DNA of 64,000 nt, taken from contig NZ_JAAKZF010000026.1 of NCBI RefSeq assembly GCF_011045125.1, positions 1 to 64,000 of the forward strand. Direction: 5' to 3'. Origin of the DNA: Allomesorhizobium camelthorni. Lineage in GTDB: Bacteria > Pseudomonadota > Alphaproteobacteria > Rhizobiales > Rhizobiaceae. The translations under genes were made by a program, and so were the position numbers. Below the pieces are notes generated by a model, which was given only the letters and a program-made list of their open reading frames with translations, made no database searches and was not told the origin of the DNA. Below, in pieces: positions 46,913 through 56,496 of the stretch. The stretch's first letter is position 1. Each line of letters starts with the position of its first letter.

Positions 46913-49166
<2,254 letters not shown>

Positions 49167-49168
49167 CT

Positions 49169-49783
49169 CTAGATATCGAAGAAGACGGCTTCCCGCTCGC
49201 CCTGAAGATGGATGTCGAATGTGTAGGTGTCGCCATCGCGCGGCGCGATCAGCGTCGGCACACGAACGCGATGCTCGATGCGTGCGAGAACCGGATCCTC
49301 GGCATTGGCTGCTTCTTCGTCGCCGAAATACATCCTGGTGTGCAGGCCGATATTGATGCCGCGGGCCACGATCCAGATCGTGATGTGCGGCGCCATCAGC
49401 CGCCCGTCCGGGAACGGCACGCGGCCGGGCTTGACCGTCTCGAACAGGCATTCGCCGGTGGTCATGTCGGTTGCTTGCCGGCCCCAGCCGGTGAAATTCG
49501 GATCGGCGGTCCCGCGCATTTCCGAAGGTGAATTGTGGAGACCGTCGGCGTCTGCCTGCCAGATTTCCACCACCGCGTCCTTGAGCGGAGTACCCGACCC
49601 GTCGATCACCCTGATCTTGACGGCAATGCGTTCGCCCCTGGTTTTCTCGTTGACCATCGCCGCGCCGAGATCGCCGTCATAGACGCCGGAAATGCCGGAG
49701 AAATTCGGCGTCAGGCCGATATGGGCGTAGGGTCCGGCGGTCTGCGAAGGACTTTCCTTCAGCCTGTCGAGGCTTTGCACCAT
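49169..49783 (-). CDS. pcaG: protocatechuate 3,4-dioxygenase alpha subunit
   Basis: A 204-residue alpha subunit. It starts [20 protein letters not shown], with AVVEIWQADADGLHNSP and APHITIWIVARGINIGLHTR. It lacks the iron ligands, as expected, and pairs with PcaH. Its start overlaps the pcaH stop by one base (TGATG). Confidence 0.95.
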   Translation of the reverse strand: MVQSLDRLKESPSQTAGPYAHIGLTPNFSGISGVYDGDLGAAMVNEKTRGERIAVKIRVIDGSGTPLKDAVVEIWQADADGLHNSPSEMRGTADPNFTGWGRQATDMTTGECLFETVKPGRVPFPDGRLMAPHITIWIVARGINIGLHTRMYFGDEEAANAEDPVLARIEHRVRVPTLIAPRDGDTYTFDIHLQGEREAVFFDI

Positions 49784-50535
49784 CAATTGCCCTCCAGCCG
49801 GTTTTCGAACAGCGACGAGCGCCGGCCCCTGAGCACAATGTCGAATTTGTAGGCGCGCGCATCCATTGGGATCGTCGCCTCCATGTCCAGCGCCGCGACC
49901 AGCCGCTCGATTGCTGCGCGGTCGGGGATGGTGCGCACGATCGGACATTGCCAGATCATCGGATCGCCCTCGAAATACATCTGGGTGATCAGCCGCTGCG
50001 CGAAGCCATGGCCAAAGATCGAGAAGTGGATATGCGCCGGCCGCCAGTCGTTCGGGCCGTTCGGCCAGGGATAGGGTCCTGGCTGGATCGTGCGGAGCGA
50101 GTAGGCCCCGTCCTCGTCGGTGATGGTGCGCCCACAGCCGCCGAAATTCGGGTCGAGCGGCGCGATGTAGCCTTCCTTCTTGTGGCGGTAACGGCCGCCA
50201 GCGTTTGCCTGCCAGAACTCGAGCAGCGCCCCGGGGACGCCTTTGCCGCGCTCGTCGAGAACCTTGCCGTAGACGATAATACGCGGCCCGATCGCGCTTT
50301 CGCCGGGCTTGGCGAAATTGTGAATCAGATCATTGTCGAGTTCACCGAGAATATTGTGGCCGAACACCGGCCCGGTGATCTCGGACAGCGTCCCGTCGAG
50401 CGACAGCAGCGCCCGCCGCGGCGAACGCAGCACTGAAGTCTTGTAGATCGGCGCATAGGCCGGCGGATGAGAGTTGAGATCGCGCCGGAAGAATGCGCCG
50501 GTTTCGGGCCTGCGGTTCGATATGCGTTCCGTCAT
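49783..50535 (-). CDS. pcaH: protocatechuate 3,4-dioxygenase beta subunit
   Basis: A 250-residue beta subunit that carries the ferric iron and cleaves the ring of protocatechuate between C3 and C4. Iron ligands are seen at Tyr116 (GGRYRH), Tyr155 (GPYPWP), His168 and His170 (RPAHIHF), each eight residues past the Pseudomonas positions I recall. Start 50535 ([20 protein letters not shown]), inside the pcaC stop by 4 bases. Confidence 0.96.
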
Positions 50536-50936
50536 CGCTGCTCGCCCTTGCCGTCCATCTCGTCGAATACCTGCTTGGCGATCTTGATCGCCTGGTTGGC
50601 CGCTGGCACGCCGGCATAGATCGCCACATGCAGCATGGCTTCGCAAATATCCTCGCGGCTGGCCCCAGTACGAGCTGTAGCGCGGACATGCATGGCGACT
50701 TCCTCGGAATGCCCGAGCGCGGCCAGCAGCGCGATGGTGACCATCGACCGCTCGCGCTGCGTCCAGTTCGGCCGCGACCAGACATGGCCCCAGGCCGCCT
50801 CGGTGATGAGATCTTGGAACGGCCGGTCGAATTCGGTCTTGGCGGCTTCGGCGCGGTCGACATGAGCGTCGCCGAGCACGGCGCGCCGGGTTGCCATGCC
50901 GAGGCTATGGCGATCCGCCTGTCCGGCTTCATGCAT
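50532..50936 (-). CDS. pcaC: 4-carboxymuconolactone decarboxylase
   Basis: A 134-residue enzyme that decarboxylates 4-carboxymuconolactone to 3-oxoadipate enol-lactone. The core [20 protein letters not shown], and [20 protein letters not shown] with its conserved His, is typical. I start it at 50936 ([14 protein letters not shown]) because ggagg is eight bases upstream, inside the pcaD end. It overlaps pcaH by 4 bases. Confidence 0.94.
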
Positions 50937-51741
50937 CGGCATGGCCTCCAAGCCGTTTGCGCGCGAGGAATTCGCGGATTCTCGCGACGAGCTGCACGGG
51001 TTGCTCCACGCAGGGTATATGCCCGGCGCCTTCTATGATCGCAAACTCCGCGCCTGGTATCAAATCCGCCATCGAGCGGACTAGCGGCGGCGGCGTCGAG
51101 CCGTCCTGGTCGCCGACAAGGCAGAGCGTAGGCACTTCGATGCGCCCAACAGCCTCCGTGTGATTGGCGTCGCGCACTGCAGCACAGGTGCCCGCATAGC
51201 CCTCGACCGGCTGCCGCGCCAGCATCGCACGGCAACCGGCGAGCAATGCCGGCTTCTCGGCGTGGAAGGACGGCGTGAACCACAGCTTCAATATGGCCTC
51301 GGCGAGCGAGTCGATACCGTCCCGGCGCACCGTGTCGATGCGCGTGTTCCACGTTTCCGCAGTTCCGATCCTGTGGGCAGTATCGCAGAGGATGAGCGCG
51401 CGCACGATCTCGGGGCGGACGGCATAGAGCCCCTGCGCGACGAGCCCGCCGACTGAAAGCCCGCAGATGATGACATCGCGCGCGCCGACAAAATCGAGCA
51501 GGCCGGAAAGATCGGCGACATGATCCGTGATCGCGTAGGGCGGGGCGCCGAGCCCGGACAGCCCATGGCCGCGCATATCGTAGCAAAGTGTGGAGAAGTC
51601 TGCGGCGAGGTCGTCCACGACCTCGCGCCAGATGCGGAAATCGGTGCCGAGCGAATTGGCGAAGACGATCAGCGGTTTTCCCGGCCCGCCCGCCCTGTGT
51701 TCGTAATGAAGCGTGACGCCGCCAATGTCGGTGAACTGCAT
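50929..51741 (-). CDS. pcaD: 3-oxoadipate enol-lactonase
   Basis: A 270-residue alpha/beta hydrolase that opens the enol-lactone to 3-oxoadipate. The nucleophile elbow is CGLSVGGLVAQGL (Ser in GLSVGG), the catalytic Asp is near LVGDQDGSTPP and the His in GAGHIPCVEQPVQL. Start 51741 (MQFTDIGGVTLHYEHRAGGP). It is the first gene of the pcaDCHGB operon, divergent from pcaQ. Confidence 0.95.
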   Translation of the reverse strand: MQFTDIGGVTLHYEHRAGGPGKPLIVFANSLGTDFRIWREVVDDLAADFSTLCYDMRGHGLSGLGAPPYAITDHVADLSGLLDFVGARDVIICGLSVGGLVAQGLYAVRPEIVRALILCDTAHRIGTAETWNTRIDTVRRDGIDSLAEAILKLWFTPSFHAEKPALLAGCRAMLARQPVEGYAGTCAAVRDANHTEAVGRIEVPTLCLVGDQDGSTPPPLVRSMADLIPGAEFAIIEGAGHIPCVEQPVQLVARIREFLARKRLGGHADA

Positions 51742-51810
51742 CCAGGCTCCTCCCTTTCTCAAATTGATATGCTTTTTCGGTTTCGTAAAATCATTTCTTT
51801 TGCCAGTTCG

Positions 51811-51826
51811 ATAACCTGTAGGTTAT
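51811..51826. promoter_or_regulatory. PcaQ binding site
   Basis: ATAACC-TGTA-GGTTAT is a perfect dyad in the pcaD-pcaQ divergent region, starting nine bases before the pcaQ ATG. It matches the PcaQ box remembered from Sinorhizobium meliloti, ATAACC-N4-GGTTAA, in all but the last base. PcaQ would activate the pca operon with the ring-cleavage products as effectors. Confidence 0.85.
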
Positions 51827-51834
51827 CAGGTAGC

Positions 51835-52743
51835 ATGATCGATGCGCGCATCAAGCTTCGCCATCTGCGCACTTTTCTCGAAGTGGCGCGCCAGAAGAGC
51901 GTGGTCGCGGCGGCAAATCTCCTGCATGTCAGCCAGCCGGCTGTGACCAAGACGATCCGCGAACTCGAGGAGACGCTCGGCGTCGCACTGTTCGAACGCG
52001 AGGGCCGGCGCATTCGCATCACCCGCCATGGCGAGATATTCCTGCGCCATGCCGGCATGGCGCTCAGCGCGGTCAGGCAGGGCGTCGATTCCGTGACGAA
52101 TGCGCATGAAGGCGAGGGGCCGCCGCTGCGCATCGGCGCATTGCCGACCGTTTCGGCGCGGATCATGCCGCGCGCAATCTCGCTCTTCCTCAAACAAGGC
52201 ACCGGCAGCAGCATCAAGATCGTGACCGGCGAGAACTCGGTGCTGCTGGAGCAACTCCGTCTTGGCGAACTCGAGCTCGTCGTCGGCCGGCTCGCCGCGC
52301 CGGAGAAGATGAGCGGCTTCTTCTTCGAACACCTCTATTCGGAGAAGGTGGTGTTCGCCGTCAGGAGCGGGCATCCGCTGCTCGAAGCCGGTCAGGATAT
52401 TTTCGCGCGGATTGGCGATTTCCCGGTTCTGATGCCGACGCGCGGCTCGATCATCCGGCCATTCGTCGAACGGTTCCTGATCGCCAACGGCATGCCTGCC
52501 ATCGCAACCGAGATCGAGACAGTGTCCGACAGTTTCGGGCGCGCTTTCCTGAGGACTAGCGATGCGGTCTGGGTGATCTCGGAAGGCGTCGTCGCGAACG
52601 ATCTCGCCGACGGGACGCTTGCCGTGTTGCCGGTCGACACCGCGGACACGAGAGGGCCGGTCGGGCTGACCATGCGCACCGACACGGCGCGGCCGCCGGC
52701 CTTCGAGGCGCTGCTGCAGACCATCCGCGAGGCGGCGCGCTGA
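51835..52743 (+). CDS. pcaQ: LysR-type activator of the pca operon
   Basis: A 302-residue LysR regulator. It starts MIDARIKLRHLRTFLEVARQ and has the helix VVAAANLLHVSQPAVTKTIR. The effector domain is of the PcaQ type: ISLFLKQGTGSSIKIVTGEN and RGSIIRPFVERFLIAN. Divergent position with pcaD and the dyad at 51811-51826 support the name. Starting at ATG 51835 leaves the dyad just before the gene. Confidence 0.94.
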   Translation: MIDARIKLRHLRTFLEVARQKSVVAAANLLHVSQPAVTKTIRELEETLGVALFEREGRRIRITRHGEIFLRHAGMALSAVRQGVDSVTNAHEGEGPPLRIGALPTVSARIMPRAISLFLKQGTGSSIKIVTGENSVLLEQLRLGELELVVGRLAAPEKMSGFFFEHLYSEKVVFAVRSGHPLLEAGQDIFARIGDFPVLMPTRGSIIRPFVERFLIANGMPAIATEIETVSDSFGRAFLRTSDAVWVISEGVVANDLADGTLAVLPVDTADTRGPVGLTMRTDTARPPAFEALLQTIREAAR

Positions 52744-54735: not shown

Positions 54736-54895
54736 GCGCCGACAGTAACCGGTACTTCGCAACCAGGCGGTAAGCATATCCTCAGCAAATCGGTGGCCAT
54801 CGGCGCGTAAATCGCGTTTGGCATGGTTCTGGCTTCTTCCGCCGCGAGCGTCCCGGAGCGGTGCGCTCGCCGCAGCCCCTGACGGAGCCATGACC
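54736..54895. other. 160-bp gap between the DMT permease and the Tat-signal gene
   Basis: No gene, T-rich terminator or recognised operator is visible here. It should carry the promoter of the Tat-signal/GMC pair. Confidence 0.5.
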
Positions 54896-55057
54896 ATGAC
54901 CGACGCCAAAACGAAACGCTCAACACGACGGAGCTTTCTCCGTACGCTGCTTGCGATACCGGCCACCGCCTTCTTCTTCCGCAACATCCGGCTGACCGAA
55001 CACGACGACATCGTCGAGGTCGACGGCTGGATCCTGAAGCGGAGCGACATACTATGA
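54896..55057 (+). CDS. 53-residue Tat-signal protein
   Basis: A tiny protein starting MTDAKTKRSTRRSFLRTLLA. The twin-arginine motif STRRSFLRT and hydrophobic core TLLAIPATAFFF form a Tat signal; little more than 20 residues (DDIVEVDGWILKRSDIL) would remain. I use ATG 54896, eight bases after ggag; ATG 54890 is too close. Its stop overlaps the GMC oxidoreductase start by 4 bases. In known membrane dehydrogenases a small Tat subunit exports the flavoprotein that lacks a signal, and that is the likely role here. Confidence 0.75.
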   Translation: MTDAKTKRSTRRSFLRTLLAIPATAFFFRNIRLTEHDDIVEVDGWILKRSDIL

Positions 55058-56496
55058 TCTTCCAGGACGCTGCCGCCTATGCGGCATCGGGTTTTGCGCC
55101 GAAGGTCTGCGTCATAGGCGCGGGTCCGGCTGGCATCACCATCGCCCGGAAGCTCGCCACCGCGGGCATTCCAGTCGTCCTCCTCGAGGCCGGCTCCAAC
55201 GAATGGACCGAAGAATCGCAGGATGCCTACAAGGGCGTGACGATCGGCGATCCCTATTTCGATCTCGACTCGACGCGGCTTCGCTATTTCGGCGGCTCGT
55301 CCAACCATTGGGCGGGCTGGTGCCGGATCCTCGAATCCTATGATTTCGAGCCCAAGACCTATATCCAGAACTCGGGCTGGCCGATCCGCCGCAGCGATAT
55401 CGATCCCTATTTCGACGAGACCTACGACATATTGGGATTGTCGCCGTTCCGCCCGGATGTTCCGGTCACCGACAATTTCCGCCTGTTCCAGGTCATCAAG
55501 AGCGAGCCGGTTCGGTTCGGCGAAAAATACGCGGCGGAGCTCGAGGCAAGCAAGACGATCGCGGTCGTTCTCAACACCGAGGTCACGGAACTTTCGGGCG
55601 ACGGCCGCTCGGTCACGGGCGGCAAGCTCTGGTCGCGCGGCCAGGCAGCCGGCGAGATTCATGCGCCCTATTTCGTCGTTGCCACCGGTGGTCTCGAAAA
55701 TTCGCGGCTGCTGCTCTGGTCCAACGAGCGCTCGAATGGCGGCGTCGTGCCCAATGCGGCGGCGCTCGGGCGCTACTGGATGGAGCACCCGATGTACATC
55801 ACGGGTGACGCCCTGATCACCAACCAGGCGTTCGAGCTCGACCATGAGGGCGAAGCCTTCTTCATGCCTTCGCCCGAGGCGATGGCGCGGCTGCAACTGC
55901 CCAATTTTCATGTCCAGCTCGAAACGGCGCCCTACCGCGGGGTGAAAGCGCTGATCGCCAACATGACGTGCTATGCGGCGCCCGAGACGACCGAATGGTT
56001 GTCGCACAAGCTTGGCCAGCGGCTGCAATGCACGGCGCGCGTGCACATGGATTGGGAGCAGTTGCCGCGCGAGCACAATCACGTCGCCCTATCTGCGACC
56101 GAGCATGACGCGGCGGGCGTGCCGCGCATCGCACTGCATTGGAAGAAGGACGAGAGTGACCGCCGGGTGATGCTCGAGGGCATGCGCCTGTTCGGCGAAG
56201 AGTTTGCCCGCAAGGATCTCGGCCGCATTCACATCAGCGACTGGGTGCGCAATGGCGAGGATTACCCGGACGGCATGGAACTCGCCGGCAATCATCACAT
56301 GGGCGGCACGCGCATGAGCGACGACCCGAAGCTCGGGGTGGTCGATCGCGACTGCAAGGTTCACGGAATGTCGAACCTTTACGTCGGCGGCTCATCGGTG
56401 TTCGCGACCAGCGGCCAGTGCACGCCGACCACCACGATCGTGACGTTGGCGCTGAGGCTTGGAGAACACCTGAGCCGCACGATCAGCAATTCCTGA
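55054..56496 (+). CDS. GMC-family FAD oxidoreductase
   Basis: A 480-residue flavoprotein starting MIFQDAAAYAASGFAPKVCV. FAD motif VIGAGPAGITIARKLATAG, then GGSSNHWAGWCRI, and the C-terminal catalytic area NHHMGGTRMSDDPKLGVV with a following TSGQCTPTTTIVTLA. It has no signal peptide of its own. It is co-translated with the Tat-signal protein, so export as a pair is likely. Relatives include fructose, sorbitol and other polyol dehydrogenases, but substrate unknown. Confidence 0.9.
   Translation: MIFQDAAAYAASGFAPKVCVIGAGPAGITIARKLATAGIPVVLLEAGSNEWTEESQDAYKGVTIGDPYFDLDSTRLRYFGGSSNHWAGWCRILESYDFEPKTYIQNSGWPIRRSDIDPYFDETYDILGLSPFRPDVPVTDNFRLFQVIKSEPVRFGEKYAAELEASKTIAVVLNTEVTELSGDGRSVTGGKLWSRGQAAGEIHAPYFVVATGGLENSRLLLWSNERSNGGVVPNAAALGRYWMEHPMYITGDALITNQAFELDHEGEAFFMPSPEAMARLQLPNFHVQLETAPYRGVKALIANMTCYAAPETTEWLSHKLGQRLQCTARVHMDWEQLPREHNHVALSATEHDAAGVPRIALHWKKDESDRRVMLEGMRLFGEEFARKDLGRIHISDWVRNGEDYPDGMELAGNHHMGGTRMSDDPKLGVVDRDCKVHGMSNLYVGGSSVFATSGQCTPTTTIVTLALRLGEHLSRTISNS

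Follow-up and report, generated by a model that had tools for sequence, protein, structure and literature searches.

A gene for a 53-residue protein, consisting of a twin-arginine (Tat) signal and a short conserved tail, is joined to the start of a GMC oxidoreductase gene in Allomesorhizobium camelthorni, and the two products probably form a minimal Tat hitchhiker pair, in which the tagless GMC would be carried to the periplasm by the signal of its small partner. The pair was studied in a stretch of 64,000 nucleotides (contig NZ_JAAKZF010000026.1, positions 1 to 64,000; hereafter the window). As judged from sequence comparison, the small ORF accompanies its GMC subfamily almost strictly, and what follows the signal is a conserved tail, not filler. 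Tat hitchhiking as such has been described before; the libraries and literature that we searched contain no account of the size, the motif or the family seen here. No description of such a mini protein was found in open-licence PMC papers, and neither Pfam nor NCBIfam has a named family for it.

The small protein is encoded on the plus strand at 54896–55057 (ATG at 54896, TGA at 55055–55057), and its full sequence is MTDAKTKRSTRRSFLRTLLAIPATAFFFRNIRLTEHDDIVEVDGWILKRSDIL. An alternative in-frame ATG at 54890 would yield 55 residues; because a GGAG at 54884–54887 lies 8 nt ahead of the ATG at 54896 and 2 nt ahead of that at 54890, the former is the likelier start. The translation contains a twin-arginine motif, TRRSFLR (residues 10–16, with R11-R12; 54923–54943, plus strand), a hydrophobic stretch, FLRTLLAIPATAFFF (54935–54979, plus strand), with no A-x-A thereafter, and a C-terminal tail, DIVEVDGWILKRSDIL (55007–55054, plus strand), that includes W45 and D51 and is conserved in the alignment. 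Only some 25 residues remain after the hydrophobic stretch, and there is no folded mature domain of about 120 residues. The GMC gene (55054–56496, plus strand; 480 residues) starts in an ATGA at 55054–55057 (plus strand) in which the small ORF stops, and another GGAG (55041–55044, plus strand), a possible ribosome site for the GMC, lies within the tail codons. A first-pass annotation of this DNA had proposed that the stop of the small ORF is fused to the start of a GMC enzyme without a signal of its own. Both points are borne out: the ATGA is common to the two genes, and the enzyme starts some 15 residues ahead of its GxGxxG and has no RR other than those at 112 and 370.

Library searches recognized the signal faintly. 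Pfam TAT_signal matched the 53-residue protein with E 0.047, under the family cut-off, and was the only family found in Pfam and NCBIfam at E up to 1. A profile built from 41 small proteins (A2; L099, L115 and L126 were left out) gave weak matches in the PDB to N-terminal signals, including those of NapA (2pq4_B, E 0.012) and CueO (9e04_H, E 0.56). RR is present in 43 of 43 representative small proteins, partly by selection, as the filter required RR or KR. According to a crude pattern, A-x-A occurs between signal core and tail in 12 of the 43 representatives and is absent from the window's protein, so that cleavage of its signal is unsure; a cut may fall within IPATA, or the signal may be retained as an anchor. 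The signal end in one relative (L041), where ALPALA precedes DQEIELVMLDGW, appears cleavable between the two.

The window's GMC matches GMC_oxred_C (PF05199, E 2.1e-26) and contains GxGxxG; its closest PDB sequence is the alpha subunit of FAD glucose dehydrogenase (8hdd_A, E 3.5e-24). The nearest fold to the model of the relative L041 is fructose dehydrogenase (9jqa_A; Z 43.3, rmsd 4.4, 428 aligned), followed by the alpha subunit of FAD glucose dehydrogenase (8grj_B; Z 36.7, rmsd 3.6, 419 aligned) and by pyranose oxidases (7qfd; Z 35.5, rmsd 3.7, 394 aligned); in this comparison (VIA rows) model residues 36–511 were spanned in at least a fifth of the rows, with the tail outside coverage. H85 of the window's enzyme aligns with His105 of the Burkholderia FAD glucose dehydrogenase, which carries FAD covalently according to the consulted sections of PMC6719666. 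The HH at 414–415 is retained, and T457 aligns with N519 of the Burkholderia enzyme. At this position, that of the NPT-motif Asn, which we take to be the second residue of the catalytic His + Asn/His pair, Thr was counted in 17 of 114 loci among the matches listed, the window included (a regex count, with two misread as Pro). Cysteines are found only at 19, 90, 306, 326, 434 and 456 and form no 3Fe-4S cluster of the kind that the excerpted text of PMC6719666 assigns to Cys212/218/222 in Burkholderia. The neighbours in the window, named from Pfam and NCBIfam, are an EamA transporter, a phenylalanine 4-monooxygenase and an Lrp/AsnC regulator, and no cytochrome c subunit gene was found among them. 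Since it has neither the 3Fe-4S cysteines nor an adjoining cytochrome gene, the window's GMC falls outside the direct-electron-transfer FAD dehydrogenase class. By analogy with its relatives its substrate would be a sugar or another alcohol. Elsewhere in the window (48114–52743) lie ORFs that, together with a LysR regulator, we presume to be a protocatechuate (beta-ketoadipate) cluster from their resemblance to one. In Rhizobium, GmcA is a GMC of 550 residues (PMC7105596, in the part consulted).

Other members of the family have neighbourhoods of their own. In Pelagibacteraceae the pair adjoins genes for an oxidase resembling DprE1 and a reductase resembling DprE2 (top NCBIfam matches, under cut-offs) and for a UbiA prenyltransferase (L089, 4566–7588), and a second locus, read by eye, is alike (L102, 7334–10356); these neighbours hint at lipid-linked sugar chemistry. 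On a plasmid of Azospirillum thermophilum (L154, 5781–7500) a cytochrome-c peroxidase gene follows the pair, and the annotated start of the small gene in the plasmid record falls inside the signal, hiding the twin arginine.

Relatives of the GMC were collected from whole genomes (27 of 297 genomes of the same family, with 28 matches, and 9 of 398 genomes of the phylum, its own included) and from named genomes (79 loci, from the best 80 stretches listed). Together with the window, the 34 whole-genome and the 79 named loci make at least 114 loci among the matches listed. Searching for the small protein beside GMC genes was one of the checks that the first-pass annotation had called for, and it came out in favour of the pairing: among the matches listed, a small ORF with twin arginine, hydrophobic stretch and Trp tail lies beside the GMC start in 95 of the 114 loci. 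When near copies were merged, again among the matches listed, the small ORF was present in 72 of 91 clusters at 95% GMC identity and in 43 of 54 clusters at 80%. As a control, 451 other genes of at least 250 residues in the named loci were scanned, of which the strict pattern hit 0 and the loose pattern 9; the identical script run on the 114 GMC loci gave 95 and 97, respectively, among the matches listed. Set against 0 of 451 controls, the 95 of 114 GMC loci are more than chance would provide. In this count L090 and L125 were not taken as positives and L081 was counted by its true ORF; L080 and L107, with an N-run or a broken frame and the tail visible, were counted as lacking the small ORF, yet are labelled mini in the tree described below. 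Among the 95 pairs listed, small-ORF lengths range from 38 to 127 residues (median 54) and gaps to the GMC from -11 to 86 bases, with the 4-base overlap seen in the window recurring in 58.

Profile searches started from the small protein lead to the same loci. In the 297 genomes of the same family, A2 gave 28 matches at E 2.8e-9 or better, each adjoining one of the 28 GMC matches, and the next match followed at 1.9e-5. Because A2 was built from many of these loci, the telling part of this result is that strong A2 matches were sought in the same-family genomes without the GMC and none was found, the same-genus genomes G282 and G358 included. At E 0.01 the profile hits 186 of the 297 genomes, mostly by partial matches via the ordinary Tat signals of long ORFs, and only the top 28 are pairs. 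The profile is poorly sensitive at class level, where at E 1e-5 it recovers the small protein from only 5 of 27 GMC-bearing genomes, the window's included. Across 337 class genomes at the same threshold there were 5 matches besides the window's, 4 of them beside a GMC; the fifth (G1141) lies in a 558-residue frame without a GMC and was discarded as false. A motif scan of 19 fetched class-level loci (L129–L147) found a mini ORF in 7, two of which (L131 and L134) have it after the GMC, a longer form in 1 (L145), and neither form in the other 11. A single-sequence search (P0001) of 199 order-level genomes at E 0.1 returned 7 matches, its own included, with a true pair only in G105.

It is conceivable that the small ORF is exported alone or is an unrelated secreted peptide, with the GMC staying in the cytoplasm and the link between the two being transcription only. 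We consider this unlikely, given the 28-to-28 co-occurrence in 297 genomes, the conservation of the tail at GMC loci across several phyla, and the longer versions that adjoin related GMCs; in its favour, AlphaFold2 fusion models gave no confident docking of the tail. These models were read-through fusions of small gene and GMC in one frame, with the signal omitted, for two relatives (L041 and L101). The GMC part had a mean pLDDT of 89.6 (L041) and 89.3 (L101). Means over ten residues of the tail were 58, 64 and 71 (L041) and 64 and 67 (L101), so the tail is modelled with modest confidence and its docking is not confidently placed, a limit on certainty that does not tell against the carrier reading. 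Strands were drawn before and at the Trp in both models (E6-9 and E12-15 in one, E3-5 and E11-13 in the other), and for this reason the tail is likely, as modelled, to form a hairpin.

Conservation of the tail also speaks for a carrier pair. Its typical motif after the signal is [DN]-G-W-[ILV]-[LV]-[KR]-x-x-D, and it is found from Mesorhizobium to Halomonas, SAR11 and a Myxococcales MAG. The A2 columns that are invariant in 41 of 41 rows are M1, R11, R12, W45 and D51; invariance of RR and W is partly by construction, because both belonged to the selecting filter. The acidic residue was absent from the selection criteria, and D or E stands six residues past the W in all 95 small ORFs among the matches listed; G immediately precedes the W in 36 of 43 representatives. 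We computed pN/pS on 59 overlapping Rhizobiaceae-type pairs of 70–99% GMC identity (604 comparisons) and obtained 0.22 for the tail (W-6 to W+7), 0.48 for the signal (an RR-anchored value) and 0.50 for the linker. The tail is therefore under stronger constraint than the signal. The first-pass annotation had described the 53 residues as a Tat signal plus about 20 more. The size and the signal stand; the remainder, which was treated as spare, is a conserved tail, and no other part of the protein is under stronger constraint.

Two readings that would deprive the small ORF of a role as a separate protein were considered alongside these data and rejected. If it were a leader ORF serving only translational coupling to the GMC, the ATGA overlap and the GGAG in the tail codons would be expected features, and a GMC ribosome site there may account for some of the conservation of these codons where the two genes overlap. 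Amino-acid conservation at a pN/pS of 0.22, the Tat motif, and retention of the tail motif at non-overlapping loci, where the GMC starts 20–86 bases downstream, make this reading most improbable. Equally remote in our estimation is a split or frameshifted gene producing a single Tat-GMC protein via recoding at the ATGA. It fits with the tail ending where the GMC begins, and with the Kitasatospora pyranose oxidase KaPOx, which shares with the window's enzyme a related GMC fold and, if the carrier reading holds, Tat-type secretion and which, in the sections of PMC9916811 consulted, has its own in-frame Tat signal. That signal is in cis on the enzyme, whereas the window's is on a separate small protein. 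All three relations between the reading frames of small ORF and GMC occur (80, 9 and 6 of 95 among the matches listed), which identifies the pair as two proteins rather than a frameshift fusion; the spread of gaps, from overlap to 86 bases, and the two loci with the small ORF after the GMC point the same way.

Longer relatives of the small protein have the same motif. A 127-residue Tat ORF ahead of the GMC in a Gemmatimonadales MAG (L115) has VVVDGWVLSVTEAR near its end, a 123-residue one in Flavobacteriaceae (L126) has VVINGWVLALTEAR near its end, and a 118-residue one on the Skermanella plasmid pSR-1 (L156), annotated as a hypothetical protein, has VVVVDGWVLPHS. These mid-size subunits share with the mini form the Tat signal and V-V-[DN]-G-W-V-L near the C-terminus, and differ from it in having some 70 residues more between the signal and the motif, as well as a further stretch after the motif. 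The long small proteins of L115 and L126 matched no Pfam or NCBIfam family, and the larger subunit of L115 had no match among PDB sequences at E 10. In an unrooted tree of 74 GMCs (one sequence of 300 residues or fewer was dropped), a clade with 100/100 support comprises 18 rows: a mid-size subunit was found in 5 of them, no subunit in 13, and a mini in none. Of the remaining 56 rows, 49 have a mini, 2 share one mini between tandem GMCs, and in 5 no such ORF was found. The mini form thus marks a GMC subfamily. At another locus of the genome under study (L013, 863–3039; G000:C315), an open frame of 182 codons containing a Tat-like SRRDLL immediately precedes a GMC gene; this partner is of conventional size.

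No small ORF of this kind was found at the GMC in 19 of the 114 loci among the matches listed. These include all 8 Paraburkholderia/Burkholderia loci (within L113–L127), and L096, L108, L109, L112 and L118; in the Tat-like ORF present at L096, the Trp is replaced by Val. In L119 a longer form of the small ORF is located after the GMC, and in L048 the GMC is without a mini while a second GMC in the locus has one. The Paraburkholderia relatives, as read by eye, sit amid genes resembling those of polysaccharide/exopolysaccharide synthesis. Their GMCs may be cytosolic and, if so, would be a useful contrast. Two further loci of the 19 (L090 and L091, at 4.5–7.4 kb in each) have one mini Tat ORF ahead of the first of two tandem GMCs, suggesting that one carrier may serve two enzymes.

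Tat-type small subunits beside GMC enzymes are familiar from the Gluconate 2-dehydrogenase subunit 3 family (PF13618). That family had no match to the 53-residue protein at E 1, nor any in the whole genome at E 0.1. A closer parallel is the Burkholderia FAD glucose dehydrogenase, which, as described in the consulted portions of PMC6719666, travels with a 168-residue Tat gamma subunit called a hitchhiker, whose hydrophobic C-terminal tail, Trp159 included, lies over the interface as a lid would. Both systems have the Tat signal on the small partner of a signal-less GMC-type enzyme and a Trp in the C-terminal tail of that partner. They differ in that the mature part of gamma, in the same portions, is a five-helix one of 121 residues, in contrast to a 53-residue partner with no helical domain in the window, and in that the Burkholderia complex has a 3Fe-4S cluster in its cargo and a cytochrome subunit, unlike the window's GMC, which is without such a cysteine cluster. 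By this analogy the window pair looks like the Burkholderia arrangement trimmed to signal and tail. The earlier proposal of a Tat hitchhiker arrangement is partly supported and is kept as the best explanation, resting on the near-strict pairing of small ORF and GMC, the signal-less enzyme and an exported relative of solved structure with a Tat small subunit; it gives way in its view of the tail as spare residues.

The order of events that we propose for the hitchhiker pair is as follows. Small protein and GMC would be translated from one transcript, with stop and start coupled, and the GMC would fold and acquire FAD before leaving the cytoplasm. Its partner's C-terminal tail (G-W-[ILV]-L-[KR]-x-x-D) would dock onto the folded GMC, the twin-arginine signal would take both through the Tat translocase, and the GMC would end in the periplasm. 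Where no signal-peptidase site is visible, as in the window, the uncleaved signal might keep the GMC at the membrane.

A different emphasis is that the small protein is primarily a structural or regulatory peptide subunit (a folding aid, a flavin lid or an anchor), placed by its Tat signal, with the GMC travelling along and the tail serving activity or stability. We regard this as quite plausible, though we would lean against it. The stronger constraint on the tail than on the signal suits it, as does the lack of A-x-A after the hydrophobic stretch of the window's protein, which would befit an anchor, and the Burkholderia gamma subunit stabilizes its catalytic subunit (PMC6719666, in the text consulted). 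About 17 residues are, however, little for a folding aid, and a carrier role stays compatible; a stabilizing or anchoring function overlaps with the carrier reading.

A wider interpretation of the carrier pair, which we put forward tentatively and at close to an even chance, is that these proteins form an unnamed family of Tat carriers of 38–75 residues, in which a mature peptide of 12–25 residues (G-W-x-L-x(3)-D) would be a permanent subunit of a periplasmic GMC. In Rhizobiaceae it might also tie the enzyme to the membrane, as no cleavage site is visible there. With the same tail also standing at the end of the 118–127-residue subunits of sister GMCs, it would then be the core by which a broader class of GMC carriers docks, the mini protein being the smallest form of that class. 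The hitchhiker partners described in the sources consulted are folded subunits. If the carrier reading is true, the minimum that Tat needs to accept folded cargo in trans would be set by a signal plus roughly a dozen conserved residues, and the mini carrier could be used as a short export tag. It would also mean that many GMC enzymes now annotated as cytosolic are periplasmic.
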